The position numbers were made by a program, and so were the translations under genes. DNA of 64,000 bases, taken from NCBI RefSeq assembly GCF_009834875.1, contig NZ_WVHT01000003.1, positions 310,001-374,000 of the forward strand, in the 5' to 3' direction. Origin of the DNA: Hufsiella arboris (GTDB lineage Bacteria > Bacteroidota > Bacteroidia > Sphingobacteriales > Sphingobacteriaceae). This document shows positions 48,572-64,000 of the stretch, in pieces (positions within the stretch are counted from its first letter, which is position 1; every line of letters starts with the position of its first letter). The notes below the pieces were generated by a model that saw only the letters and a list, made by a program, of their open reading frames with translations, did no database searches and had not been told where the DNA came from.

Positions 48572-49534
48572 CTATTTCACCGGCAGATTGAATACAACGG
48601 ATAAATCGTGACTGCCTTTGCCAACGCCAGTAGGACGCCCGGTGTTAAAACTGTAGCAATAACCGAATTTCAAACTGTTCGTTTTGCTCACGTTATATTG
48701 AATAAGCGGACGAATAATTGACTGTGTCGAATGATCGTCGCTTGTATTGGTACTTTTCAAATCAATAATATCCTGCCTGAAAGCGATGCCAAAAGTTATC
48801 GTCTTTGCCATTTCGAGCATTGCATTCAGCTCGAAGGCGGTATTACCACCGAATGTTTTTATAAAAAGAAAAGACGGCTGAAACCCGAAGCCATTTGAAT
48901 ATTCAAGGTTGGCTCCCAGCAGAGCGTACATATTTATTTTCCGAAACATTGGGGGAACCTGGTATTGATAATCCTCTTTATTGCTGTACACCGATATCAG
49001 GTTGTCAAATGATAACCCCCCGTAAAACTTCGAAGAGTACTCTAACCTGATACCCGCTCTTGCATCGAGTTTAGAGCTGTAAACATTGTTCATTGCTGCC
49101 GGATCATTTTCCGTAACGGTTTGTAACTGCACCATCGAAATATCGAATTGCTGAAAACCAATTCCCACGCCTGACGACATTTTAAGATCAGACGAAAGAT
49201 CTACGTGATATGCATAATTAGCATAAGCAACGGTATAACTGTCATTACCGAACCGGCTGCGCGTAAGATTAAGGCCCCAGCCTGATTTATTATTGGCGAA
49301 CAAACCGTCCACATCAGTCGAAATCGTATATGAATTCGATGCCTGCCCGGATTCATTCATTTGGTAATAGGCATTCGCGTTTAAGCGGCCGTCCGTTCCC
49401 ACAAACGATGGGTTGACATAAACCTTGCTAAAAATGTACTGCCCCCCAAGAAGATCAGCCTGGGCAAAACTCTTGCCGGATAGCAACAAACACATCACGG
49501 TGCCCGCCGCAGTTAATTTTAATAATCTTTTCAT
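48572..49534 (-). CDS. PorP/SprF family type IX secretion outer-membrane protein
   Basis: PorP/SprF proteins are beta-barrel outer-membrane partners that secure secretion or surface attachment of specific T9SS substrates. The 320-residue protein has a signal peptide (LTAAGTVMCLLLSGKSFAQ) and the family opening ADLLGGQYIFSKVYVNPSFV, with GTDGRLNANAYYQMNESG and barrel strands to the end (SHDLSVVFNLPVK). The ATG at 49534 is preferred; the codon before it is GTG. It starts 3 nt after the stop of the 2321-residue giant protein. The pair is thus co-translated, like the SprB-SprF pair of flavobacteria, and its cargo is probably that giant. Confidence 0.9.
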   Translation of the reverse strand: MKRLLKLTAAGTVMCLLLSGKSFAQADLLGGQYIFSKVYVNPSFVGTDGRLNANAYYQMNESGQASNSYTISTDVDGLFANNKSGWGLNLTRSRFGNDSYTVAYANYAYHVDLSSDLKMSSGVGIGFQQFDISMVQLQTVTENDPAAMNNVYSSKLDARAGIRLEYSSKFYGGLSFDNLISVYSNKEDYQYQVPPMFRKINMYALLGANLEYSNGFGFQPSFLFIKTFGGNTAFELNAMLEMAKTITFGIAFRQDIIDLKSTNTSDDHSTQSIIRPLIQYNVSKTNSLKFGYCYSFNTGRPTGVGKGSHDLSVVFNLPVK

Positions 49535-49537
49535 CAC

Positions 49538-52500
49538 TTAGTATGCGATTGTTATGTAACCCTTAAATACATGTTCTACACCATCGCTGCCGGTTGCCCG
49601 CAGGATATATCCGTACGAGCCCATCGGCAGGTGATCGCCTGACCAGTCGTTCTGGTAGTTAACCTTGTAATAAACTTTGTTGTAACTTTTATTATAGATT
49701 ACCAGCACATTCGATTTGTAGTAATCGTTCAGACCACCGATCACGAATTGGTCATTGATGCCATCGCCGTTTGGTGTGAATAAACCCGGAATAAATAGCT
49801 TTGAGGCCAGGTCGGCGCGCTTATCCAGTACCGATATCTGAACAGGAATTAAGGAATTATTTGCCAGGGATGGATCATTGTTTGAACTCACCATGCCCCT
49901 GCCTAATTGAAAAATACCGACTTTATTACTCCTCAACCTGACTGTAATGGCTTGTTCAATAGCGGGATTCATGGAAGCAAGCGTGTAGGAAAACGACCGG
50001 TTCGTGGGTTCGAAAACCAGACCGGTTTGATCCGATGACACATAGTCGAAAGCCGTAGTTAAAGTATCGGCGAACCGGACATTCAGCGCCACATCCGGAC
50101 CGTTATTTTTAAGTTTATAAGTAAAGGCCACGGTATCGCCTAAATTGATCTGGTCACGGCTTACTGAAGCAGTAACCTGTACATCAGCCCTACCGTCCAC
50201 ATAGAAGATCCGTGGCTGTTCAACCGTTCCATCGATCTTATCCTGCTGCTGAACTATTTCCGAACTGATATGATCCGGAGTGCCGGGACCCATTATCTTG
50301 TTCCCGGATTTTACACCAGCGATAATTTGATGCTTTCCTGCCTGCCCTGAGGCGATAGTAATTGGAAACACCTTATTTTGTTGTTTGTCGAATATCTTCA
50401 CCTCAACATTCTTTCCATCCTGATCGTCATTACCATAAACCGGAATAAAGGCGATCGCTTGTCCATCTGTCATTTTTGTAAGCTGTGCCACAGAAACAAC
50501 CTGGCCTTCGATATAAACCCTTATTTCGTATCTCGACGGGTCGTTCACCTGGTTGCCATCCTGCACAATTACCGCGGTGACTGACATGTTATTTTTAAAG
50601 TCTATCGTGTTAACCTTTACATTCGGATCTGTAGTGCTGCTTACCGAAGTTTGAGGATTGTTCACCTCGACCGGCGTTCCTGCAACAGGATTTGTTAGCG
50701 CCTGGATGAAATCACTTTCGCTTTCTTTGTCAGCCGGAGCAAAAGCCGGAACCGTTATTCCGTTGTTACTTAAAAATCTGTAGCCTTTACCCGGACGCAG
50801 GTATTTCAGGCTTCCCGACCAGCTTTGCGTTGATGCGTTGTATTGAGAGAATTCTTCCTGGCTCATCACGACATCTTTATCGGCCGGTTTAAAGTTTTTG
50901 AAGTAGCTTTTCACATCGATGTTCATGCTCATCGGGTAACCCATCCAATTCCAGCCTTTATTGAGCTGAACCAGGACCTGCTGTTGCTGTGGCTGTCCCA
51001 ATACCCGAAGAGTATCGTCATGGGCCACGCTGATCATATAACTGGAGATCAGACTGATGCTGTCTAAATTTCCTACCCAACCCATTTTCTGTGAATACTG
51101 GCTATAAGCGTTGTTTCTCAGCGTTTTAATTACATCTCCGGGAGTAGATTTAAGCGATTTCAATACATTCTTTACAGACATATCCGGGTTCTTTGAATTG
51201 AGCGATACCCAGTTCCAGCCTTTTTTGAGGATGATGCTTTGGATCACTCCTTCCGCGTGGGCAATGTATGGATTGGTAACGTCGCCGACTATGCCTCCGG
51301 AGATAAAATCAAGCCTTTCTTTTGATTGATATTCAACACCGGGATAAGCGTCCCACAAACGGAAAGTCAGTTGCTCGACATTTGGATTGTTTGAATAAGC
51401 CGTTACGTAAGCGACATATTTTTGCTGCGTTTCATCAAATTCAACCTGCGCCACGCCACGGCATTGTTCGCCCACAAACACAGCGATCTTATCGCGTGAA
51501 TCTTTTGAAATAAGCGTATCCGTTTCGTTCCGGCTGAATTGGGAAGTGATATTCATCGAATAGCGAAAGTTCGCCGGGTTAACTTTCCAATCAGGCGGAG
51601 TGCGCAGTACGCTCACTTCAACATATAGGTTTTGCGGTTTATTATTTACCATAGCAACCACTGTGTCCGTGTAGATTGCAGTGTTAAGGCTCCTGTCAAT
51701 TGAAAAGTCAATATTCACCTCGCCAAACGGCAGCACTTTCCCGCTCTTTACGGTCGGCTTCAGCCATTGCGGATATTTAACCAGCGAAAACGATTGATTT
51801 AGCGCCGTTTTGTTTTTGATCTTCGCGCTGAATGATCCGCCCACATTTTCGATCGAATTGATCGCAACATTTGCCGGATCCCAATAAACCGGGCTACGGT
51901 TCACTACGAAAGACCAATTGATTGTGTCAGTTATCAGGTTGCCGGTATTATCCCGAAGATTCTGAAGACTGGCCACAAGTTCCACGTTTTCATAATCATT
52001 GATCAGCGTTTCAGGCACGGTACGGATCTCGATATTTTTTCCGTTGCAAATCAAGGTCGCCGGGATTTCCTTGCCGTTATCTTTGCGTGTCAGTTTTGCC
52101 AGTACGGGATTTACTTTATCATCGCAGGAAAGGTCCTTGTTAAACACGACACCGATATAATCTCCAATTCGTAAAATGCCGTCTTTCGGACTTGGAAGAC
52201 CGAAAGCCACTGCTGAAACCCGATCAATTTTGCCGCGGTAGACGGGTGAATAATTCACATCCACGCCAGCACAAACTGCAACCGCTCTCAGTTCATATTC
52301 ACCGTCATCAAGGCCTTTCACATTGAATGTATAGTTATAATACTTTTCATTGAGCTGACTTTTTGGAACGGTTACAACAGTTTGCCATTGAGAATTCAGA
52401 AAGAGTGTATTTAATTTCCTGTATTCAAGGCTTACAGTAGTTAGAGGAGATCCGGCAGAGGCATCGTATTTGCTGAAAGCAACGTACAATTCGTCATTGT

Positions 52501-55500
52501 TCGATTGATTTACAAGCCAGTTGTTTCCGGGACGGAACAGATCTACTTCGCTGCATTTATTCTGGAAATATGCGTTTATACTCACCCGCGGATGGGTTTC
52601 AACACCACCGCTACCTTCGATCACGTCATCCAGCGTGTTATCGCAGGTTGAAAACATCACCAAAGAAAGATTTTCATAAACGCTCGACGAAGGTCCGCGA
52701 AAAACTTCTACCGGCAGATTGTACGATTTTCCTGTCGGGATGGTGAACGTTGCTTGCCCGTTTACCGCGTCCTGGCCGGCAACCAGCACGCGGGCGCCGT
52801 TCGGATTGCTCAACGGATCGAGTTTAACTGCATACTCAACTGTTTCGTCACTTTCACTACGGTTTGCAATCGTAATACTGAACTTTGCAGATTGATCGGC
52901 GGGAACATTCCGCTGTTCATTTGTACCGTTTATGGTTACGGCCGGCAGGTGGCGATATTGGGTATAATCTTCATGCGGACAGCTTGATGAGCCAGTCACC
53001 GTTTTGAAGATCGGGGTTCCGTAGCGGCGGTCTTCAAACAATCCGACAGAAAAGAAATCGCCAAGGTCATTATCCTCCATATGGTAGGAAACCGTTTTGG
53101 TATTTTGTGTAGATGACCCGGAACCTTTTGTATCCAGCATCCGGACAGTCATCAGTGCACCGGCTTCAAGCGAGTTGAAATCGCCTGCGTGAATGCCAAG
53201 GCCGATCTTTGCCTCGGTGTTCACGTACACTGAAAATTCTGTCGACGTTTCTGTGAGCGTGTCAATGGTTAAAGTGTTATCATACAAAGCGCCGGCGCTG
53301 AATGAAATATTGCCACCCACAACGCCTTTGATCTGATCCGGCAACGTTCGCACCGTCGGGTTCTTCCGGGCTTTGTCATTATCATCCAGCGCTTTGTTCC
53401 ATGCTTCAAGGTTCGCCTGGTTTTCGAGCATTTCTTTATTCAACTGAACAAGGGTGGCATCTGTGATACTTGTTGAACCGTTCTTCTTTTGAAGTTGCGC
53501 ATCGTTAAACTTACTTTTTGACAAACCGAGTATCGTTTGCAGTTGAGGAATGAGTGTATGTTTAATATGGTATTCGGTATATAGATAAGTGGAATTGAAG
53601 CCAGTGTAATCCGCAGCGAAGGAGGTATCGCGATCCATGTCTTTTTTAGCCGGATTGTATTTTAATACATCTGTAAGAGCATACTCCATATTCAGCGATG
53701 CTCCAACATACAGGTCGCCGTCTTCACCCACCAAAGTTTCTTCTCCGGAGGTTGAAAAATCCTCGTTAAACGTAAAGGTGAAATTTGTTGTGCTTGATGA
53801 AGTATTGTCACGTCCGGCCTCGAGCTTTGCACCAACATAAACGTCCGCGCCGATCTTTCCGATGAAAGGCACATCCGTTCCTGCACCTACTTTTGCATCG
53901 ACATAAGCGCCGGCACCGCCGCCTACCTGGTATTGTGTGCTGACCGACGTAGCGAATGTTGTTCCTTTGCTGATCTTAGCAGACGAAAGGTCTCCGGGCG
54001 GATCATGAAGAATAAAGAATGGTATCTGGGGCGTTTTGGTAAGGAAAGTTGAATTGCGCGGACGCTCGCCTTCCACAACGACGATGATCTCTTTTGAAAC
54101 AGATTTATCGCCAACAACCGCAACAAGCTGAAGCTTCTTCTCATACGGCGACTCAAGAACAGGCTTGCCGATTTTCAATTGATACTTTACCAACCCGCCA
54201 ACGCCGATCTTTATCGCTTGTCTTTCGCCTCTATCCGACACCGCATCGTATACATACACGGTTCCGCTATCCAACGGACAATCGTATTGAATGCCTTTGT
54301 ACTCGTAATGCTCAAATAAACGAATATTCAGGATTGGGTTGTCGTTTTGCGCGGCCAGGTATTTCTTTTTCGGACCGAAATCCTTCAACTGAAAAACATC
54401 TGCGTCGTTCACATCGAGCTTAAGATCTTTGTGATAGATGAAAGCCAGCTCATGCGGCAACAACGCTTTAGATGTAGTAACCTTAGTTATCGTAGTGTCT
54501 TTTCCCGGAGCAATGGTGTCAATTCTACCAGAAGGAAGTGTAACCGTTTTTGGCGGTGTATGAATAGTTTCAGTTTTTGATGTACTCAGTGTCGTTGTAT
54601 CTCGTTGCGCCAGATTAACCTGCAGCGGGCCATAATTCTTTTTGAAATATTCCAGCTTATTGTCGTCAGGCCCGATGTTGGTGAAGATGCCGGTGATCTC
54701 CACCTCGAAATCCGTAGCGGGCAATACCAACGTCTTGATACCGTTGGTCGCGCCAGAAGGCGGATTATTTGTTTGTCCGTCCGCATAAATCGTGTAGCTT
54801 TTATTCAGGTTCGCAGCTGCTGAAGTACTCGGATTCCAGCCAGTTCTTTTACCACGGAGAGATACCAGAATATTATCTCCGATTGGTGCGTTACAACCAG
54901 CCTGGATTTTGATATTCAGCGTGTCAGTTTTGCGATCCTCAAAGTCAATTCCGTTTACAGCCGAATTCATGACGATCGACTTCACACTGTCGGCAGTACC
55001 GCCACCTTTAAAAATAATCGGATGGTTCTTAAATCTTGTCTTTACCAGGTAAGTGCCAGCATCATAAATTGTAACCGAGTATGATCCATCCGCTTTCGTT
55101 TTAATCCCCGAGCTTTTACCGTTCACAAAGATCTCCGCTCCTTCAACCGGCAATATAACCGGTACTTCTGCATTATTCGGATAGTAAACTTTTCCGCTGA
55201 TTGATAGTGCAGTGGTATCCGTAAAATCAACTGCCGACGCGGTTGCGCTGTTAATATCCAGCTTTCGTACCAGCTTATCGGGATTAAATTTATGATCCGA
55301 GTAAGATGGCGTCACCGTAAAGGAAGCTTCATTTGCTCCGAAATATATTTCTCTTAATTCGTAGTAACCTGCTGCATCTGTGGTTGTTGTATACGTCCTT
55401 AATATTCCTTCAACGGTGCCATTCGCTGTAACCGTTACCCCAGATACACCGGAATTTTGCTTGCTGCGGACGTTGCCCGAAATTTTACCAATGGCTTTTT

Positions 55501-56503
55501 TGTATCCTGAATCTGCTTTTTCGACGAACACCTCTGATCCGTTGATCGGAAGAATCGAATACTTGTAAGTCTTACCCGGAACACCATCAAAATCGGAATA
55601 CGATTTGGAAGTTTTGTTTAATACAGCAAGCTCCTCGCCGTCCCTGAAAACCTTGATATCTGTTGCAAACTTGGAAAGATCGCTCCAGGTTAAAATAACT
55701 TTATTGTATTCTCCGTCTGAAGCGGTGAAAGTATTTGAGTATACAAAGTTGTTCACAGCATTCGAAGGATCGGATTTTTGGTCACCCCAACTGGAGCGGC
55801 CCGTGGCGTTAAGCTGCGTTTTTACGGTATAAGTATGCGTAGTATTTGTAACCGGAGAGTTGTCGCGATATGTCCTCGCTGTTCCGACAGCGGTGCCTAT
55901 CAACGTTCCGTCGCGATAGATTCCATATTCAATATAGCTATCGGGAACATTACTCCCCTTCTGCCAGGCAAGATCGATGTACGTTACATCTCTGTTGATT
56001 ACACTAGTCAGATTTAAGGGTTTCTTTAAAGCTGCCGTTGTAACGCTGATGTCTCCGGAGCTGTTATCAAAGTTTTTACTTTCGGTAACACAGCTTCCGT
56101 ATACAGCAGGCGACGTACATCCGTCGCCATCCTTGTGTACTGATAGTGTCCAGGTTTGACTATAACCAGGACCGAGTATTACCAGCTTTGAAGCATTGTC
56201 CTGGTCGTTGCTGACAGCATCACTGAACGATAAACTATTGCTCTTTACCCCTCCTTTTACAGTTTGTCCGGTTGTTTTCCCCCATTTCCAGTTCGTACTG
56301 CCTTTGTCCTCCGGGTACTTCGCCATATCACCGAAGGAAAACGTGCCCTGGTAATCGCTTCCACCAGCGTCATAACTATAATTCTGCGCTTTCGACTGGC
56401 TGAAAAATGCTAGGAAACTTAATACAAGCAGCAAATTCCGAAAGTAACTGCCGGAATTCCGAAACGCTAACTGTTGAATAACAGAGGGTAAAGTTCTTGC
56501 CAT
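49538..56503 (-). CDS. Giant secreted multidomain protein with T9SS type B sorting domain
   Basis: This 2321-residue protein has a signal peptide ending SKAQ near residue 40, after a long n-region. I read: fibronectin-like modules at about 160-335 (SYIEYGIYRDGTLIGTAVGT), two carboxypeptidase-regulatory modules at about 340-530 (GKISGNVRSKQNSGVSGVTV, LSISGKVYYPNNAEVPVILP), and a long middle region I do not recognise (about 530-1350). A SbsA/BIG_5-like domain follows at about 1440-1540 (PKDGILRIGDYIGVVFNKDL), two GWNW modules near 1763 and 1849, and a DUF11 domain at about 2105-2235 (LGDTVAFTYKLKNNGPDVAL). The C-terminus is a CHU_C-type sorting domain (FTPNGDGINDQFVIGGL). It should be exported by T9SS to the surface, perhaps as an adhesin or surface fibre. 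Confidence 0.88.
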   Translation of the reverse strand: MARTLPSVIQQLAFRNSGSYFRNLLLVLSFLAFFSQSKAQNYSYDAGGSDYQGTFSFGDMAKYPEDKGSTNWKWGKTTGQTVKGGVKSNSLSFSDAVSNDQDNASKLVILGPGYSQTWTLSVHKDGDGCTSPAVYGSCVTESKNFDNSSGDISVTTAALKKPLNLTSVINRDVTYIDLAWQKGSNVPDSYIEYGIYRDGTLIGTAVGTARTYRDNSPVTNTTHTYTVKTQLNATGRSSWGDQKSDPSNAVNNFVYSNTFTASDGEYNKVILTWSDLSKFATDIKVFRDGEELAVLNKTSKSYSDFDGVPGKTYKYSILPINGSEVFVEKADSGYKKAIGKISGNVRSKQNSGVSGVTVTANGTVEGILRTYTTTTDAAGYYELREIYFGANEASFTVTPSYSDHKFNPDKLVRKLDINSATASAVDFTDTTALSISGKVYYPNNAEVPVILPVEGAEIFVNGKSSGIKTKADGSYSVTIYDAGTYLVKTRFKNHPIIFKGGGTADSVKSIVMNSAVNGIDFEDRKTDTLNIKIQAGCNAPIGDNILVSLRGKRTGWNPSTSAAANLNKSYTIYADGQTNNPPSGATNGIKTLVLPATDFEVEITGIFTNIGPDDNKLEYFKKNYGPLQVNLAQRDTTTLSTSKTETIHTPPKTVTLPSGRIDTIAPGKDTTITKVTTSKALLPHELAFIYHKDLKLDVNDADVFQLKDFGPKKKYLAAQNDNPILNIRLFEHYEYKGIQYDCPLDSGTVYVYDAVSDRGERQAIKIGVGGLVKYQLKIGKPVLESPYEKKLQLVAVVGDKSVSKEIIVVVEGERPRNSTFLTKTPQIPFFILHDPPGDLSSAKISKGTTFATSVSTQYQVGGGAGAYVDAKVGAGTDVPFIGKIGADVYVGAKLEAGRDNTSSSTTNFTFTFNEDFSTSGEETLVGEDGDLYVGASLNMEYALTDVLKYNPAKKDMDRDTSFAADYTGFNSTYLYTEYHIKHTLIPQLQTILGLSKSKFNDAQLQKKNGSTSITDATLVQLNKEMLENQANLEAWNKALDDNDKARKNPTVRTLPDQIKGVVGGNISFSAGALYDNTLTIDTLTETSTEFSVYVNTEAKIGLGIHAGDFNSLEAGALMTVRMLDTKGSGSSTQNTKTVSYHMEDNDLGDFFSVGLFEDRRYGTPIFKTVTGSSSCPHEDYTQYRHLPAVTINGTNEQRNVPADQSAKFSITIANRSESDETVEYAVKLDPLSNPNGARVLVAGQDAVNGQATFTIPTGKSYNLPVEVFRGPSSSVYENLSLVMFSTCDNTLDDVIEGSGGVETHPRVSINAYFQNKCSEVDLFRPGNNWLVNQSNNDELYVAFSKYDASAGSPLTTVSLEYRKLNTLFLNSQWQTVVTVPKSQLNEKYYNYTFNVKGLDDGEYELRAVAVCAGVDVNYSPVYRGKIDRVSAVAFGLPSPKDGILRIGDYIGVVFNKDLSCDDKVNPVLAKLTRKDNGKEIPATLICNGKNIEIRTVPETLINDYENVELVASLQNLRDNTGNLITDTINWSFVVNRSPVYWDPANVAINSIENVGGSFSAKIKNKTALNQSFSLVKYPQWLKPTVKSGKVLPFGEVNIDFSIDRSLNTAIYTDTVVAMVNNKPQNLYVEVSVLRTPPDWKVNPANFRYSMNITSQFSRNETDTLISKDSRDKIAVFVGEQCRGVAQVEFDETQQKYVAYVTAYSNNPNVEQLTFRLWDAYPGVEYQSKERLDFISGGIVGDVTNPYIAHAEGVIQSIILKKGWNWVSLNSKNPDMSVKNVLKSLKSTPGDVIKTLRNNAYSQYSQKMGWVGNLDSISLISSYMISVAHDDTLRVLGQPQQQQVLVQLNKGWNWMGYPMSMNIDVKSYFKNFKPADKDVVMSQEEFSQYNASTQSWSGSLKYLRPGKGYRFLSNNGITVPAFAPADKESESDFIQALTNPVAGTPVEVNNPQTSVSSTTDPNVKVNTIDFKNNMSVTAVIVQDGNQVNDPSRYEIRVYIEGQVVSVAQLTKMTDGQAIAFIPVYGNDDQDGKNVEVKIFDKQQNKVFPITIASGQAGKHQIIAGVKSGNKIMGPGTPDHISSEIVQQQDKIDGTVEQPRIFYVDGRADVQVTASVSRDQINLGDTVAFTYKLKNNGPDVALNVRFADTLTTAFDYVSSDQTGLVFEPTNRSFSYTLASMNPAIEQAITVRLRSNKVGIFQLGRGMVSSNNDPSLANNSLIPVQISVLDKRADLASKLFIPGLFTPNGDGINDQFVIGGLNDYYKSNVLVIYNKSYNKVYYKVNYQNDWSGDHLPMGSYGYILRATGSDGVEHVFKGYITIAY

Positions 56504-56544
56504 AATATTAGGTTTAAATCGCCGGTAAAGGCGGCTTTGAACGT

Positions 56545-56552
56545 CAAAACTA
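56545..56552 (-). promoter_or_regulatory. Possible -7 promoter box for the giant-protein operon
   Basis: On the minus strand this reads TAGTTTTG, an exact TAnnTTTG box, 42 nt before the ATG of the giant protein. No matching TTG -33 box is seen at the usual spacing, so the call is weak. Confidence 0.3.
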
Positions 56553-56637
56553 TGGCACTGATTGTACTGAAAATCAGGAATGTATGTAAACGCCGGAACT
56601 ATGTATGCAAACGACTGGTCTTCGGTTGCAGCATTCC

Positions 56638-57408
56638 TTATAAGAAGCTAAAGTTTCTAAAAAACTCTTCTTTATAGTTTCGGCCAAGTGGAATATCATA
56701 AGGCCCGAGAATGATCGAGTAATCATTGAAAGTTTGCAAACGATTAAGATTGATCGCATATGATCTATGCACACGTACAAACTGAGGATGACTGAATTTT
56801 TCGAGCACATGCTGCAGGCTGTTGCGCAAAGCATATTTTTTATCACTTGTATGAATGTACGTATGATTGCTGTCTGCTTCAAGGTAATAAACATCGCTTA
56901 ACAGGATTTTCACGAAGCGATAATTCTGTTTGACAAACACTGCATCGTTAAAATATAAGATGGTTTCATTACCCGGCTCTTTTACTTTAGGTGCATCTAT
57001 TGAAACGACCTTAGCTTCTTTACTCTTCCTAACTGCAAACTGATGCAGGGCCATTTCTATCGCTATACGCAGATTGGCTGGCTGATAAGGCTTGGTTAAG
57101 TAGGCGGCCGGCATGGTGTCTTTCGCCCGGTCAATAGTATTCTTATCGCCAAACGCAGTTAGATAGATAAACGGAATCTCTTTTACTACGCTGATCTTTC
57201 GCGCCGTCTCTATGCCATCCCAGTCGCCTTTTATGTGAATATCTAACAGTACCAGGTCGATACCCTGGCTTTTGATAACTTCGAGCGCTTCGGGCCCGTT
57301 ATCGACAATTCCGACTACCGTGTAACCGTCCGCCTGCAGGCTTTCTTCAAGACCCATTGCCAGGATTCCCTCGTCTTCTACGATTAAGATATTTACGGCT
57401 TCATTCAT
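56638..57408 (-). CDS. LytTR family response regulator
   Basis: The 256-residue protein has an N-terminal receiver (NILIVEDEGILAMGLEESLQ; phospho-acceptor Asp56 in DLVLLDIHIKGDWDG; Lys in AAYLTKPYQPANLRIAI). A C-terminal LytTR DNA-binding domain follows (VYYLEADSNHTYIHTSDKKY, PQFVRVHRSYAINLNRLQTF). The LytTR end (ILGPYDIPLGRNYKEEFFRN) is complete. It starts 3 nt after the histidine kinase stop, forming a cognate pair. Because it lies between two T9SS giant-protein/PorP pairs in the same orientation, it may control one or both. Its binding sites were not recognised. Confidence 0.93.
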   Translation of the reverse strand: MNEAVNILIVEDEGILAMGLEESLQADGYTVVGIVDNGPEALEVIKSQGIDLVLLDIHIKGDWDGIETARKISVVKEIPFIYLTAFGDKNTIDRAKDTMPAAYLTKPYQPANLRIAIEMALHQFAVRKSKEAKVVSIDAPKVKEPGNETILYFNDAVFVKQNYRFVKILLSDVYYLEADSNHTYIHTSDKKYALRNSLQHVLEKFSHPQFVRVHRSYAINLNRLQTFNDYSIILGPYDIPLGRNYKEEFFRNFSFL

Positions 57409-57411
57409 AAA

Positions 57412-59202
57412 TTATGCAGTTTTCTTCCATTTACTCAAGGGAATATTTATGTTGAGCACCGCGCCATCCTGGTTTTGCAAGTCGCAGCTTCCGCCCAGTT
57501 GTTTTGAAAGAACTTTAACCAATTTTATCCCGAACGACTTCTGCGGCTGGTTCCATATGCTTAATGGTAATCCAGGACCATTATCGCTGACGGACAGCTC
57601 AAGGCCGTTTTGACTCTTTAAAGAAACAGACAAAACCGGGTTTGAAACATTGGCGAATGCATATTTAAACGAATTGGTTATCCATTCATTGATGATCAAT
57701 CCCAAAGGCAGCGCCACGTCGACGTCAAGCTCTTCCACTTCGACATCAATACGGATTTCGACCCGGTCATCCGCATAGCCAAAAGACTGCATGATGCTTC
57801 CTATGAGATCGGTAATGTATTCCTTCATGTTCACCATATTCGGATTTTCCTGTTGGTAAAGGCTGCGGTGAATAAGCGACATCGCCTCAATACGCTGCTG
57901 CCCGATCCGGATAGCTTGCCGAGATTCTTCATCCGTCAAACGGTTCGATTGCAGGCTCAGCAAGCTGGTTACTATTTGGAGGTTGTTTTTTACGCGATGA
58001 TGCAGTTCTTTCATCAACACCTGGAGTTTTTCCGACTGGCGGGTGATCTCACGGTTACTTCGCTTGATCATCCTGAACTGGTAGAAGAGCAGCCCAAGCA
58101 ATAAAATGAACACAGACAGCCCGACTATAAAAGCGATGATCACTGAGGACTGCCAGCGATTTTTCTTTCCGAGTAGAAGGATTTTCTGGCTATTGCGTTC
58201 CGTTTCATATTTAACCTGAAGTTCGCTCATCTGGCGGGTGTTGTTCAGCACATTCAGCGAATCCTGCATACTGCTGAATTGGCGGTAATATCCGAAAGCC
58301 CGTTTATAATCGCCGATATAACCGAAATATTGATACAGTGCACGCATGATCTCCATCTCACGAAATGGATTTTTTATCACGCGAGTGAGTTCCAGCGATT
58401 TGGTCAGGTAATCTAATCCTGCTTTATAATCATTATGTCTGTAGCTCGCAATGGCCAGCCAGCAATATGCATAGGTTAGTGATAAGCGGCGATTGTATTT
58501 GAAGCAAAGCGGGATACTTTTGTTGCCGTAATACATGGCTTGTTTGTAATTCCCTCCCTCGGCATAGTACTGGCAGATATTATCGTAATAGGCGATGCGA
58601 TTACTTTCATATTTACGGTTGCTTTCAGCAATTCGCAAACCGCGAAGATGCAAGGCAAGTGATTGCCGGATAAGCGTACTGTCATTAACATCACTTCCTT
58701 TTGCTTTGCTGAACATGGCCTGCAGGCGAATCATGTAGATAATGTTCACCGTATCCTTTAAGCGCTTTGCAGCCTCCAGACCTTTATTAGCGGCATCAAA
58801 AGCAAAGGCATAATTTCCTTTTTCTTTATGGATGTTACCGATAATTGAATATATGATGGGAAGCTTTGCGTCGAATTGATAGAAGTTGGCGTCTTTGAGT
58901 GCCTTTACAGCCATCTTCATCCCCTCTTCGTGATCGGTAACACGCCAGAAATATTTCGCTTTAAGCACCTCCGACTCAACTTTTGCTTCAGGATAAGCAG
59001 CATATTTAGCCAGCGAATCGCTAAGTGCAAGCATGCTATCCGGTGTTTCGATAACACCATTGCCAATGTCGATGAGCTGCCTTATTCGTTTACGCGCGTC
59101 GTCATCTCCATCATTTAAAGCTTCTCTCCCTGACCTACCGGTACAAGCTGTAAACAAAATAAATCCGAAAACTAAAGCTTTTGTGTACAGCCTGATATTC
59201 AT
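57412..59202 (-). CDS. TPR-containing sensor histidine kinase, HisKA_2 type
   Basis: The 596-residue protein begins with a signal that ends in a lipobox-like LFTAC followed by TGRSG. A long helical TPR region follows (about residues 40-345; IYSIIGNIHKEKGNYAFAFD, YAEGGNYKQAMYYGNKSIPL). One membrane helix (IIAFIVGLSVFILLLGLLFY, about 355-375) and a short coiled coil lead to HisKA_2 (MKELHHRVKNNLQIVTSLLS, His near 399) and HATPase_c (LGLIINEWITNSFKYAF, VSDNGPGLP). The TPR part would lie in the periplasm. HisKA_2 kinases commonly pair with LytTR-type regulators, as here (3-nt gap). The lipobox is unusual for a membrane-spanning kinase. Its signal is unknown. Confidence 0.92.
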   Translation of the reverse strand: MNIRLYTKALVFGFILFTACTGRSGREALNDGDDDARKRIRQLIDIGNGVIETPDSMLALSDSLAKYAAYPEAKVESEVLKAKYFWRVTDHEEGMKMAVKALKDANFYQFDAKLPIIYSIIGNIHKEKGNYAFAFDAANKGLEAAKRLKDTVNIIYMIRLQAMFSKAKGSDVNDSTLIRQSLALHLRGLRIAESNRKYESNRIAYYDNICQYYAEGGNYKQAMYYGNKSIPLCFKYNRRLSLTYAYCWLAIASYRHNDYKAGLDYLTKSLELTRVIKNPFREMEIMRALYQYFGYIGDYKRAFGYYRQFSSMQDSLNVLNNTRQMSELQVKYETERNSQKILLLGKKNRWQSSVIIAFIVGLSVFILLLGLLFYQFRMIKRSNREITRQSEKLQVLMKELHHRVKNNLQIVTSLLSLQSNRLTDEESRQAIRIGQQRIEAMSLIHRSLYQQENPNMVNMKEYITDLIGSIMQSFGYADDRVEIRIDVEVEELDVDVALPLGLIINEWITNSFKYAFANVSNPVLSVSLKSQNGLELSVSDNGPGLPLSIWNQPQKSFGIKLVKVLSKQLGGSCDLQNQDGAVLNINIPLSKWKKTA

Positions 59203-59336
59203 TTGGTTAGCGACGCGAAATCTCGCTTTAACAAATATCCTTTTTTTTAACTTAAGTAAAAGCGATATAACAAATAAAACAAAGTATGAAAAACGGATTA
59301 TTAAAATGTTCTTATTTTTATTCTAAAACCTAACAA

Positions 59337-60359
59337 TTAATAGAAATCCGAACACTTAACCGATTCGGCAAACTGCCTGTATCCTCCATTGCGATTCGGA
59401 AAGCTGACTTCGTAACCAATGCTTCCTTCAGTAGTTCCTGTGGTATTTCCGTATCCCAGCCGGGACGTTGTCGCATCGTGACTTACCCCCAACCTGATCT
59501 TTTCATCGCGATAGGAACCTGAGAAAATATCGAATATTAGTGAAACGACAACGGCATCCGGTCCGCCCTGGCTATTGTTACGATACCAAATTCCTGCATT
59601 CAGCGCATTTTTCTTTACCTGCAATCCCGCACTGTAAGCTATTGATTTGCTTTGGCTATACACCACCACCGAGGGGATTGCGTACAAATTATCCTCATCA
59701 TATCCGCCGGCGATCAGTCCAAGACGATAACTCATATAAGCCGTTGTGCGCATAGGTAATGGCGACTTCATTCCTGTAAAGGATTCATTTGGCTTGTTGA
59801 GATGCTGTACTGCGCCTCCCGCCATGAAATTGCCAACAACAAGGTTGATACCGGCTCCTGAATCGAAATAATAGCGATTATTGTATTGCAGCGGTCCGGC
59901 GGAACTGGCGGCTCCTGGAACTATACCCGTGTGAACATCCAACTGGTCGGAAAACACAAGCTTCGTCTCGTCAATCCTGTTGTTGGTAATCCCTGCTTGC
60001 AGTCCGAACGAAAGATTGAAATTATCTGAACCTACTGCATAGGAATAAACACCTGCAATGTTGTTTTTTGTCCAGAAAGCCGTTCCCTCGCTGGTGTGAT
60101 TTACAATTAACCCGATGCCGCTGTTAAATTCCGGTAACTGGTAATCAAGGGAAGCTGTCATGTAGTTGAGTGTTCCCGGGACGGCTGTCCATTGGTTTCT
60201 ATAAATAAAGTTCACCCGCAAATCTCCTTTGAACTGACCGTTAAGTGCCGGGTTCAAATACACGGGTGCGTTGTAAAACTGGGAATAAATATGGTCCTGT
60301 GCCCTGCCCGTCAATATACCGAACAAGCACAAAAAACCAACTGCAAATCTCCTCTTCAT
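59337..60359 (-). CDS. PorP/SprF family type IX secretion outer-membrane protein
   Basis: The 340-residue protein has a signal peptide (FAVGFLCLFGILTGRAQ) and the family opening DHIYSQFYNAPVYLNPALNG. FKGDLRVNFIYRNQWTAVPG, YQLPEFNSGIGLIVNHTSEG and GSDNFNLSFGLQAGITNNRI follow. It is the classic PorP/SprF form and only distantly similar to the protein at 48572-49534. It starts 2 nt after the stop of the PKD-repeat giant, so it is probably dedicated to surface placement of that protein. A 134-nt gap separates it from the sensor kinase downstream. Confidence 0.93.
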   Translation of the reverse strand: MKRRFAVGFLCLFGILTGRAQDHIYSQFYNAPVYLNPALNGQFKGDLRVNFIYRNQWTAVPGTLNYMTASLDYQLPEFNSGIGLIVNHTSEGTAFWTKNNIAGVYSYAVGSDNFNLSFGLQAGITNNRIDETKLVFSDQLDVHTGIVPGAASSAGPLQYNNRYYFDSGAGINLVVGNFMAGGAVQHLNKPNESFTGMKSPLPMRTTAYMSYRLGLIAGGYDEDNLYAIPSVVVYSQSKSIAYSAGLQVKKNALNAGIWYRNNSQGGPDAVVVSLIFDIFSGSYRDEKIRLGVSHDATTSRLGYGNTTGTTEGSIGYEVSFPNRNGGYRQFAESVKCSDFY

Positions 60360-60361
60360 AC

Positions 60362-63300
60362 TTATCGGATTAAATGAATAACTCCCACCCTTTTGGGCTC
60401 CTTGCCGTCATATGCCATACCTTTCCACTCGGAACCGTTTTTAAATTTCGCTTTGATTTCCCAGACATAAACGCCCTGCGGTGCCGGTATGCCGTTCATC
60501 ATGCCGTCCCAGCCCTCTGTTGGTGTTCCTGTATCGTCGAGAGCGGTGCTTTCCCACAATTGCTGCCCCCATTTATTGAATACACGCATCCGCCATTCGC
60601 TCATGCCGGTTGCCTTAACACGGAATACGCTTAGTTCCGGCGAACGGCTTCCTGGTATAAAAGCGTTTGGCACGAACAGCTTTCCTTCGACGCTGTTGAT
60701 CTTCACCATTTTCGCTATCGTATCGGCGCAACCATTTTTATTCATAACGATCAGCCGTACGTTGAAATATCCCGTATCGGTATAGGCATGTGTCGGACTT
60801 TGCAATGTTGAGAAAGTGCCATCTCCGAAATCCCAGCGCCATTTATTGGGCCTTTCCGGCGACTTATCCTGGAAAACGAAGCTATATTTCGGCACAGTTA
60901 TTTCTGTTCCGGGATCGACATCGAATGCAGCCTTTGGTTTCGGATAAACATTAATGTAGTCTGGCAAAACGAGGGTATCGGTACAACCGTAGGCGGAAGT
61001 TGCAATTATTTTCACCGTGAACGGCGAGCCCACATGATCGTAAATATGTACCGGGTTTACTTCGGTTGAATAAGTTCCGTCGCCAAACTCCCAGCGATAA
61101 CTTTTAGCATTTTTCGTTTGGTTATTAAATACTACCGCGATTTTGCCACAGCCTTCTGTCGGCGCCGCTGTGATTTTAAATTCCGGATTCGGGTAAACTT
61201 CAACAGAATCAATAGCGTAATTCTCGGCGCAGCCATTGGAAGCGGTTACTTTTACCCGGTATTTTCCAGGCTGTTTGTAAATGTGTTTGAAGATTTCCGG
61301 CGCCGTACTGCTTTGCTCAACGCTTCCGTCACCGAAATCATAGACATAAGTTTTCGCACGGACACTGTTGTTCTTGAATTCGGTGTAAAATGGTGCACAG
61401 CCTTTTCGCTCGCCAACCACTACCACACTGGCAACTACATCATTCGGGAATACTCGAATGCTGTAGCTGGCAGAGTCAATACCGCATTCGTTTTGCGCAA
61501 CCATCGTAACCTTGAAATTTTTCAAAATATTGGTGGTGTAGATATGGCTGACAGTGCGTGTGTCGTCGTATGTTTCCGCAGGTGTGCCATCGCCAAACTT
61601 GAAGGTGTATTTGTTGCCGGTTCCGGGTGAAAGATTTGTAAAATTCACTTTGAACGGCGAACATCCTGAAAGATTATCAGGCGTAAAAATTGCGATCGGT
61701 TTTGGTCTCACCCACACTGTGTCAGTTACACTTTTTGATCCGCAGCTTGGCGTCGCCGAGGTTAAAGTGACGAAGTATAAACTGTCGCGGCCATCTGTAC
61801 GCGCATCGAATGTTACGGCATCCGGATAGGTTTTATCCGAAGTTTGTCCGTTACCAAAATCCCAATGGAAAGTTACATCGTCAAAAGAACTGCTCTTATT
61901 ATCAAATTGAACCGTCAGCGGGCCGCAGCCTTTTTTTACGCTCATTGTAAACTTCGGTGTCACGTTTGAGCGTGTGCCGAATGTATGTTCATAGCTTACA
62001 CTGTCGCAGCCGAACTTACTGATCGCAACCAGTTTAATTACCACGCCGGTTGTAGTGAAGGTATTGATTGTATAACCTGGAAAAGTGATTCCTTTGCCGA
62101 TATATCTTCCATCAGCGTACCAGTGATAGTCTCCGTTGCCATCTGCAAAATCAACGACACGGATGTTGCTAGCATCGATAGCGAAAGGAACGCAGCCTTT
62201 TTCTTCAGTGTAGGTGTAATTAGCTTTTGGAAGAGGGTTCACTGTGATAGTGATGATGTTACTTTCGAGTGGAACAGTACATTGCCCGGATTTAATAACA
62301 CGTTTGAATTTGGTGGTTTTAGTGAGCGCATCAGGCTGGTAAGAAGCAGTATTAGCGCCGAAAATGTTTTTAAATCCTGTTCCGTCGCCAATATCTTTTT
62401 GCCACTGGTAGGTATAATTACCGTCGCCACCCGTTGGCGCCTGAATCTCGGTTAATGGAAGCGGAACTTTTGCATAACACACTGATTGATCAGTGCCGAC
62501 CACATTATTCGACAATGCAGGCTGAACTGTTACTGTTTTAACTGTACTAACACTCAGGCATTGCCCGGAAGTAACCGTCCGACGAAATGATGTTGTTTGT
62601 GTAAGACCTGTTACGATCAGGCTCTGGTTCGTTTCACCGGGGATCACCGTCCAGCTCAGGCTGTCGGTACTGCTTTCCCATTTAAATTCATAATTTATAT
62701 TATCGCCACCGGTTGGTTTTTCACCATTGATCGTCACGTCCGATCCCGAGCAAACGGTTGGCACTGCGGAAATTTTGTTTTCTAAAGGTGCAAGGTTTGT
62801 GATCGTAACGGCATCTTCGGTATAACCGCATTGTTCGTTAGAAATCCGCCAAACAAAATTGTAGATCTTTCCGGCAATTAAGCCGCTGGCTTTCGCATCC
62901 GGAATAGTATCATTATCAAAAGTAATTTCCGAGCGCGAAGGAGAAAGCGTCCATTTACCTTTTGATCCGGCATTAGCCGAATTTCCATGTAATTGATAGG
63001 TTGTTTGTGCACATAGTGTTTCATCCTCCCCGGCTTTGGCCTGGATTGGCGGATCGTTGACTGTTATCGTCGTGATAGTCGATGAGTCAGGGTTGCATAC
63101 GCCATTTTGAACCCAGGCACGGTATTCCCGTGTTTTTGTTAAACCGGAGTAGTTGATAAATACGTTGGTTCGAAAAACCCGCGTCCAGTTCGAGTCACCT
63201 TTGTCTCTGTATTCCCAATAAATAGGTGTACCAATATACCGGTCGAGGTTAATCCGCCGTTCTGCCGCATCACCTGAACACACAATGTAATTTGAAGTTG

Positions 63301-64000
63301 TTTCTCCACCTTTGCTCGGCTCGTTTACAACAACGCTGATTCCAGTTGTGTACACAGGCTGACAGTTCGGACCGAGGCTTTTTATTTTAACACGATAGAA
63401 AAGTGTGTTCTGGATGTTGGTGAAAGTATGTGTATCACTAGTCTCAGCAATAATAATCGGATTAGTAAAACTTGCGTTGTCAGACGTCTCCCACTGTTCA
63501 ATCACTCCTTTGCTGTATCCTGCCAATCTTAAAGTAGATGGATCTCCTTTACAAACTATAGCCGGAGATGGGGTAACCGCACCTGCTAGCGGTTGCGGAT
63601 AGACCTGGAAGGTATCACGTGCTGCGGTGGTAACACATGGAGCATCAACCGCATCATTGTATAACTGCCAGCTAAGAATATATTCACCCGGAATCAGGTT
63701 ACTGATACTGGTGTTGTATTGCGTATCGTCGGCGATGGCAGCATTACCGCCGGTGGGCTGGCTTTCTATTTTCCACTTCCCGGTTTCATTGTAGACCGAA
63801 CGCGGCTGATTGGCTCTTATTAACCGGTTGTTGTTCGCCGTTTCTGTATTATCACAGACATCTGCAATCGCAGTAATCTGAGCCACCATTTTCGGCCTGA
63901 TCGTAATCCTGACATCATCAGGTTTAGAAGGACACGGTGCTTGCCCGTTTAAGGTCCAGGCAAACGTGTAGGCATTACCGGGAGTAAGATTTTTAGCGAT
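60362..64000 (-). CDS. Giant PKD-repeat surface protein with T9SS type B sorting domain (N-terminus outside window)
   Basis: The frame is open to the right edge: 37 codons beyond the first in-window Met (63889) encode in-frame sequence (LTPGNAYTFAWTLNGQAPC), so the true start lies outside. The visible 1212 residues hold SprB-type/Ig-like repeats first (ITINPDD-like PTGGDNINYEFKWESSTDSL, APTGGDGNYTYQWQKDIGDG). Five clear PKD domains follow, plus a weaker sixth (VTFHWDFGNGQTSD, YRWEFGDGTYSTEVNPVHIY, RWDFGDGTFSTLQSPTHAYT). It ends in the gliding-motility-associated type B sorting domain (KLFVPNAFIPGSRSPELSVF, MRVFNKWGQQLWEST, GVYVWEIKAKF). Such proteins are exported by T9SS and form adhesins or gliding fibres. 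A PorP/SprF gene follows after 2 nt. Confidence 0.93.
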   Translation of the reverse strand: MAKNLTPGNAYTFAWTLNGQAPCPSKPDDVRITIRPKMVAQITAIADVCDNTETANNNRLIRANQPRSVYNETGKWKIESQPTGGNAAIADDTQYNTSISNLIPGEYILSWQLYNDAVDAPCVTTAARDTFQVYPQPLAGAVTPSPAIVCKGDPSTLRLAGYSKGVIEQWETSDNASFTNPIIIAETSDTHTFTNIQNTLFYRVKIKSLGPNCQPVYTTGISVVVNEPSKGGETTSNYIVCSGDAAERRINLDRYIGTPIYWEYRDKGDSNWTRVFRTNVFINYSGLTKTREYRAWVQNGVCNPDSSTITTITVNDPPIQAKAGEDETLCAQTTYQLHGNSANAGSKGKWTLSPSRSEITFDNDTIPDAKASGLIAGKIYNFVWRISNEQCGYTEDAVTITNLAPLENKISAVPTVCSGSDVTINGEKPTGGDNINYEFKWESSTDSLSWTVIPGETNQSLIVTGLTQTTSFRRTVTSGQCLSVSTVKTVTVQPALSNNVVGTDQSVCYAKVPLPLTEIQAPTGGDGNYTYQWQKDIGDGTGFKNIFGANTASYQPDALTKTTKFKRVIKSGQCTVPLESNIITITVNPLPKANYTYTEEKGCVPFAIDASNIRVVDFADGNGDYHWYADGRYIGKGITFPGYTINTFTTTGVVIKLVAISKFGCDSVSYEHTFGTRSNVTPKFTMSVKKGCGPLTVQFDNKSSSFDDVTFHWDFGNGQTSDKTYPDAVTFDARTDGRDSLYFVTLTSATPSCGSKSVTDTVWVRPKPIAIFTPDNLSGCSPFKVNFTNLSPGTGNKYTFKFGDGTPAETYDDTRTVSHIYTTNILKNFKVTMVAQNECGIDSASYSIRVFPNDVVASVVVVGERKGCAPFYTEFKNNSVRAKTYVYDFGDGSVEQSSTAPEIFKHIYKQPGKYRVKVTASNGCAENYAIDSVEVYPNPEFKITAAPTEGCGKIAVVFNNQTKNAKSYRWEFGDGTYSTEVNPVHIYDHVGSPFTVKIIATSAYGCTDTLVLPDYINVYPKPKAAFDVDPGTEITVPKYSFVFQDKSPERPNKWRWDFGDGTFSTLQSPTHAYTDTGYFNVRLIVMNKNGCADTIAKMVKINSVEGKLFVPNAFIPGSRSPELSVFRVKATGMSEWRMRVFNKWGQQLWESTALDDTGTPTEGWDGMMNGIPAPQGVYVWEIKAKFKNGSEWKGMAYDGKEPKRVGVIHLIR

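Follow-up and report, generated by a model that had tools for sequence, protein, structure and literature searches.

A two-component system with a predicted LytTR operator beside one giant type IX cargo operon in a Bacteroidota genome

Background

To our knowledge, how Bacteroidota time the display of individual giant surface proteins of the type IX secretion system (T9SS) is largely unknown. The window analysed here, a stretch of 64,000 nucleotides from contig C23 of a 4.80-Mb Bacteroidota genome (G000), exhibits two giant genes, each followed by a PorP/SprF-family gene, with a two-component system (TCS) between the two pairs. Does this TCS control both giants, one of them, or neither? A first-pass annotation had read the six genes as one self-contained module, in which the TCS co-regulates the two giants or switches between them. 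A search of the open-access literature yielded no account of a LytTR system that is dedicated to a cargo of the T9SS.

Results

All six genes lie on the minus strand, in the transcription order giant1, PorP1, kinase, LytTR regulator, giant2 and PorP2. The intergenic spacings are 2, 134, 3, 134 and 0 nt, the last being 3 nt if PorP2 begins at ATG instead of GTG. The order, the single strand and the spacings given in the first-pass annotation (2, 134, 3, 134 and 3 nt) are borne out by the gene coordinates, and its family assignments (a PKD giant, two PorP/SprF proteins, a HisKA_2 kinase and a LytTR regulator) by Pfam and NCBIfam.

The C-terminal part of giant1 occupies positions 60362 to 64000; the gene extends past the window end, to 69085 in window numbering (L009:2362-11085), and encodes a 2907-aa PKD-repeat protein. 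PorP1 (59337 to 60359) is the PorP/SprF-family outer-membrane shuttle assigned to giant1 (PF11751, 146 bits; TIGR03519, 164 bits). Giant2 (49538 to 56503) is a 2321-aa T9SS cargo with CarboxypepD_reg, DUF11 and a C-terminal CHU_C type B sorting domain (61 bits, cut-off 27), its TIGR04131 score of 28.8 being under the cut-off of 35. PorP2 (48572 to 49537; TIGR03519, 136 bits), the cognate shuttle of giant2, is presumably co-transcribed with it. Both PorP proteins pass the TIGR03519 cut-off of 90.6 bits. A type B sorting domain had been assigned to both giants. This holds for giant2; the giant1 C-terminus, which PorP1 adjoins, stays below the CHU_C cut-off (24.9 versus 27) and has no TIGR04131 match. 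The pairing of each giant with its own PorP/SprF partner stands, and the pairs look like cognate units.

The sensor kinase (57412 to 59202) exhibits a lipobox N-terminus, a TPR region, one transmembrane helix, and HisKA_2 and HATPase_c domains. The features expected of a HisKA_2 kinase (phospho-acceptor histidine, HATPase_c domain and membrane segment) are all present. The following gene (56638 to 57408) encodes a LytTR-type response regulator, with REC (PF00072, 74 bits) and LytTR DNA-binding (PF04397, 69 bits) domains. The 134-nt gap between PorP1 and the kinase (59203 to 59336) probably holds the promoter of the TCS itself.

Ten PorP/SprF genes are present in the genome, and most of the other eight immediately follow or adjoin a gene for a cargo protein whose end is T9SS-like. 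No TCS was seen directly before the cargo at these eight loci, at two of which the fetched stretch or the contig ends inside the cargo gene; a HisKA_3/LuxR pair is located about 1.3 kb downstream at one of them. Since giant-PorP pairs are common and no TCS was seen in that place at the other PorP loci, the TCS is the unusual feature of the present locus.

Giant1 orthologs occur in 76 of the 186 complete genomes of the family. PorP1 follows giant1, without a TCS, in four of the eight giant1 neighbourhoods examined (G172, G149, G045 and G004), and both the TCS and giant2 are absent from all eight. The genome G004 carries giant1 on contig C33 and giant2 on contig C8. The six-gene order, the conservation of which had been named as a check on the first-pass reading, was not found in any relative searched. 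With giant1-PorP1 and giant2-PorP2 occurring separately and the order not found in relatives, the six genes do not form one self-contained module. The locus is composed of two adjoining modules: the predicted regulated unit kinase-LytTR-operator-giant2-PorP2 (48572 to 59202), and the giant1-PorP1 pair, an independent unit outside it. A second system, composed of a LytS-type kinase and a LytTR regulator, lies beyond the window end and is divergent from giant1, at a distance of 352 nt upstream (L009:11438-13279; 69438 to 71279 in window numbering). This system was considered as a conserved partner of giant1 and rejected, having no homologue in the eight giant1 neighbourhoods.

The gap between the LytTR gene and giant2 holds the direct repeat GTTTGCATACAT-N9-GTTTACATACAT (56580 to 56612, minus strand; GTTTGCATACAT-AGTTCCGGC-GTTTACATACAT in full), which we predict to be a LytTR operator. 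A LytTR site consists of two 9-bp direct repeats separated by 10-13 bp; such sites are in most cases located upstream of the -35 element and activating (PMC11347149). The predicted operator conforms to this pattern of two direct repeats of about 9 bp, with repeats of 12 bp and a period of 21 bp. When the preceding base is counted, 12 of 13 positions match at the 21-bp period, a value equalled by none of 2000 dinucleotide shuffles. The operator is a single site in the 4.8-Mb genome at up to three mismatches. Nothing comparable is found in the PorP1-kinase gap or in the 352 nt upstream of giant1. Matching promoters had been suggested for the two gaps of 134 nt, together with a search of both for LytTR-type direct repeats. 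The gaps are equal in length and different in content, the search being positive on the giant2 side and negative on the kinase side.

Behind their LytTR genes, the related TCS loci of G057, G007 and Agriterribacter humi (Chitinophagaceae) exhibit a repeat of TTYRCATACA that again has a period of 21 bp, in G007 as three half-sites in register. These repeats are the best or the sole site in their own genomes; three-mismatch operator-like sites elsewhere in the genomes are at about the level of a reversed control pattern. The operator is absent from giant2 loci that lack this TCS (G004, G134, G107, G003 and six more remote ones). No such repeat was seen near the TCS of G378 or that of G633, both more remote, and the LytTR homologues of G044, G206, G164, G097 and G251 have no operator. 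In the genome G001 (same genus), a HisKA_2-LytTR pair that is more distantly related lies with a CHU_C protein and with a divergent LRR protein ending in a type A tail; one operator of this kind points in each direction.

The consensus of the Bacteroidetes -7 element is TAnnTTTG (PMC6414381). The predicted -7 box of giant2, TAGTTTTG (56545 to 56552, minus strand), begins exactly 27 nt after the operator and lies 41 nt before the giant2 ATG. At this same spacing the box matches the consensus at 6 of 6 positions in the window genome and in G057, and at 5 of 6 in A. humi. In all three it is the best match within 10-59 nt, with shuffle P values of 0.0005, 0.001 and 0.006, respectively. The box of G007 is weak (4/6, P 0.05), and that of the LRR gene in G001 is found at 38 nt, a shift of about one turn of the helix. 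The -33 region before the giant2 -7 box looks poor. This geometry fits a LytTR activator acting upstream of a weak -33 region, activation being the most likely polarity.

The TCS is found in 4 of 399 family genomes at E < 1e-80 and is rarer than giant1. Kinase relatives (44-47%) occur in G007, G057, G378 and A. humi, and the lipobox start is common to the kinases of the window genome, G057, G007 and A. humi. The TCS adjoins giant2-family genes in G057, G007, G849 and G928; together with the window genome, these are the genomes with a giant2-family protein behind the operator. In G057 giant2-PorP2 directly follows the LytTR gene, and the kinase is divergent. In G007 the kinase and LytTR genes precede a 3265-aa protein colinear with giant2 (24-29% identity over three segments). 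The TCS of A. humi precedes a 537-aa lipoprotein, with no giant; this protein was considered as a giant2 relative and rejected, as it gave no significant match.

The giant2-PorP2 pair is kept in G057, G004, G134, G107 and G003. G004 and G057 belong to the same genus and carry it at the same chromosomal site, with the TCS beside giant2 in G057 and a TPR-HTH protein in G004. The other genomes lacking this TCS exhibit a distant TPR-HTH protein, divergent, in G134, a HisKA_3/LuxR pair in G003 and no regulator in G107. From these varied neighbours, giant2 appears to tend towards having some local regulator, not always this TCS, a pattern seen in few genomes.

LytTR relatives (40-48%) gathered from 195 genomes of the Chitinophagaceae, the family of A. 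humi, served as a held-out set. With a PWM score over 20 as the criterion of a match, the repeat is found in 5 of 19 new loci and in 0 of 400 shuffled loci. All five matches have a period of 21 and lie on the LytTR strand. The four discovery loci, from which both the PWM and the search pattern were derived, are themselves counted among the positives overall. Widening the region added G928 to the repeat carriers; the majority of the remoter Chitinophagaceae loci score under the PWM threshold. The -7 box is found at 27 nt in three of the five held-out matches (G954, G881 and G941) and, for its second pair, in G928; in G849 it is not at 27 nt. A motif-free period scan of 22 regions behind LytTR genes singles out 21 bp (z = 9.1, next 2.1); without the four discovery loci, the mean is 8.44 at 21 bp versus 7.33 at the next best period. 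The operator carriers do not form one clade in the LytTR tree, which is weakly supported and requires three changes.

Behind the operator, G849 and G928 encode giant2-family proteins (27-34% identity) ending in a type A tail, and G954, G881 and G941 have an operator and promoter with no obvious gene. Giant2-family passengers carry the type A tail in Chitinophagaceae (L174:5433-11936, L176:4832-10687), and type B with PorP in the window's family. The secretion signal appears to have been exchanged on one and the same passenger.

Discussion

We consider it highly probable that the kinase-LytTR pair is a cis-acting TCS dedicated to the giant2-PorP2 operon, most likely activating it through the repeat. 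The periplasmic TPR domain of the kinase, held by a lipid anchor and one transmembrane helix, would receive the presumed input. The kinase would then phosphorylate LytTR, and phosphorylated LytTR would bind the two 12-bp direct repeats, which the 21-bp period places on the same face of the helix. From this position, 27 nt ahead of the -7 box and with a poor -33 element, it would recruit RNA polymerase, switching on the giant type IX cargo and the cognate shuttle at the same time. The gene order, the repeat, its uniqueness, its co-occurrence with the TCS and the fixed geometry are read directly from the sequence; the binding, the polarity, the co-transcription and the signal are predictions. 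For one cargo operon, the regulator, the predicted operator and the promoter geometry are located with single-base precision, and the prediction transfers to relatives.

The adjacency of all genes on one strand and the equal gap lengths are what favours a TCS that co-regulates giant1 and giant2 or switches between them, as the first-pass annotation had it. We regard this as very improbable: the genome has one operator, neither the kinase-side gap nor the 352-nt stretch ahead of giant1 holds a repeat, giant1-PorP1 is found without the TCS in four relatives checked, and the six-gene order was found in no relative. What survives of the idea that the TCS regulates surface proteins is a predicted LytTR repeat before the neighbouring giant2; control or switching of both giants does not. 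It is similarly hard to credit that the repeat belongs to another regulator and stands behind the LytTR gene by an accident of gene order. The binding of the operator is a prediction and some LytTR relatives have no repeat, but the repeat follows the TCS rather than giant2 and has the LytTR geometry.

A variant of the preferred explanation keeps the same regulator and operator and lets LytTR repress giant2. The operator ends 27 nt before the -7 box and therefore reaches close to the -33 region, which it would overlap or abut, and a repressing LytTR protein, CoxC, is known (PMC11347149). Repression nevertheless seems unlikely, as the poor -33 element resembles activator-dependent promoters and most LytTR regulators activate (PMC11347149). 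That an unrelated TCS merely came to lie beside a T9SS gene pair we hold to be extremely improbable: no regulator was seen directly upstream of the cargo at the eight other PorP loci, so that such linkage is no general rule, but five genomes, drawn from two families, share the linkage to giant2-family genes, the operator lying in between.

The dedicated, probably activating TCS may be compared with known systems. AgrA, YpdB, BtsR and RcoM/CoxC are likewise REC-LytTR or LytTR proteins; the direct repeats that they bind are spaced by about two turns of the helix and in most cases lie upstream of -35 (PMC11347149, PMC5552118). The present system differs from these in its HisKA_2 lipoprotein-TPR kinase, which is not of the LytS type, in the repeat TTYRCATACA, in the Bacteroidetes promoter and in the fixed 27-nt spacing. 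PorX-PorY-SigP also exerts two-component control in a type IX context; however, PorX is devoid of a DNA-binding domain, both PorX and PorY are orphans, and their targets are the machine genes (PMC11320123). Here a DNA-binding regulator, with a LytTR domain and paired with a kinase, lies beside one cargo gene. SprB-SprF and the other type B/PorP-SprF pairs of Flavobacterium johnsoniae are arranged as here, a giant type B cargo being followed by its own PorP/SprF gene, but the available portions of the two reports describe no dedicated TCS or operator for them, unlike the giant2 locus (PMC12618676, PMC9143113). In F. johnsoniae, 9 of the 12 type B genes adjoin a PorP/SprF gene, cognate pairs are functional, and the type B cargoes are known or predicted adhesins (PMC12618676). 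Giant2 is compared with SprB in gene arrangement; a gliding adhesin of the SprB kind is defined by its movement over the cell surface and by the dependence of gliding on it.

More tentatively, the locus could be one instance of a portable sense-and-display cassette, a reading that we consider possible and not yet probable. In such a cassette, a promoter with the -7 box 27 nt behind the operator, together with a LytTR regulator and a TPR kinase held by a lipid anchor, would drive a giant2-family protein across two families. The cargo's sorting signal would be exchangeable (type B with its own PorP, or type A), and in relatives different sensors would take the place of the regulator beside giant2. 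The kinase may respond to envelope or secretion status and so feed back on display.

Several minor observations were made at related loci. Homologues of the TPR sensor of the kinase end in a weak HisKA remnant, with no HATPase and no adjacent regulator (L045:9340-10725, L046:9707-11101). An operator-like repeat with two mismatches, possibly due to chance, precedes a LuxR-type regulator and two T9SS-type surface proteins in G003 (L134:8527-8559). At four Chitinophagaceae loci (L170, L171, L172:12950-13078 and L173:12960-13093, minus strand) the operator behind LytTR precedes no clear gene, and three of them have the -7 box at exactly 27 nt. L172 and L173 exhibit a terminator-like hairpin and a T run about 100 nt further on, with no Rfam match; Rfam gave nothing at gathering score on the window and four loci. 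A LytTR-controlled small RNA behind these two operators is possible. Other local regulators, TPR-HTH proteins and a HisKA_3/LuxR pair, take the neighbour place of giant2 at L063:17579-19450, L059:8333-10066 and L065:4635-8329. In the two species of the same genus, G057 and G004 (L043/L063), the S10 ribosomal operon is interrupted by the giant2 block, which lies between rpsJ and rplC, and in G001 (L132) another T9SS surface-protein block with a LytTR system adjoins rplC.
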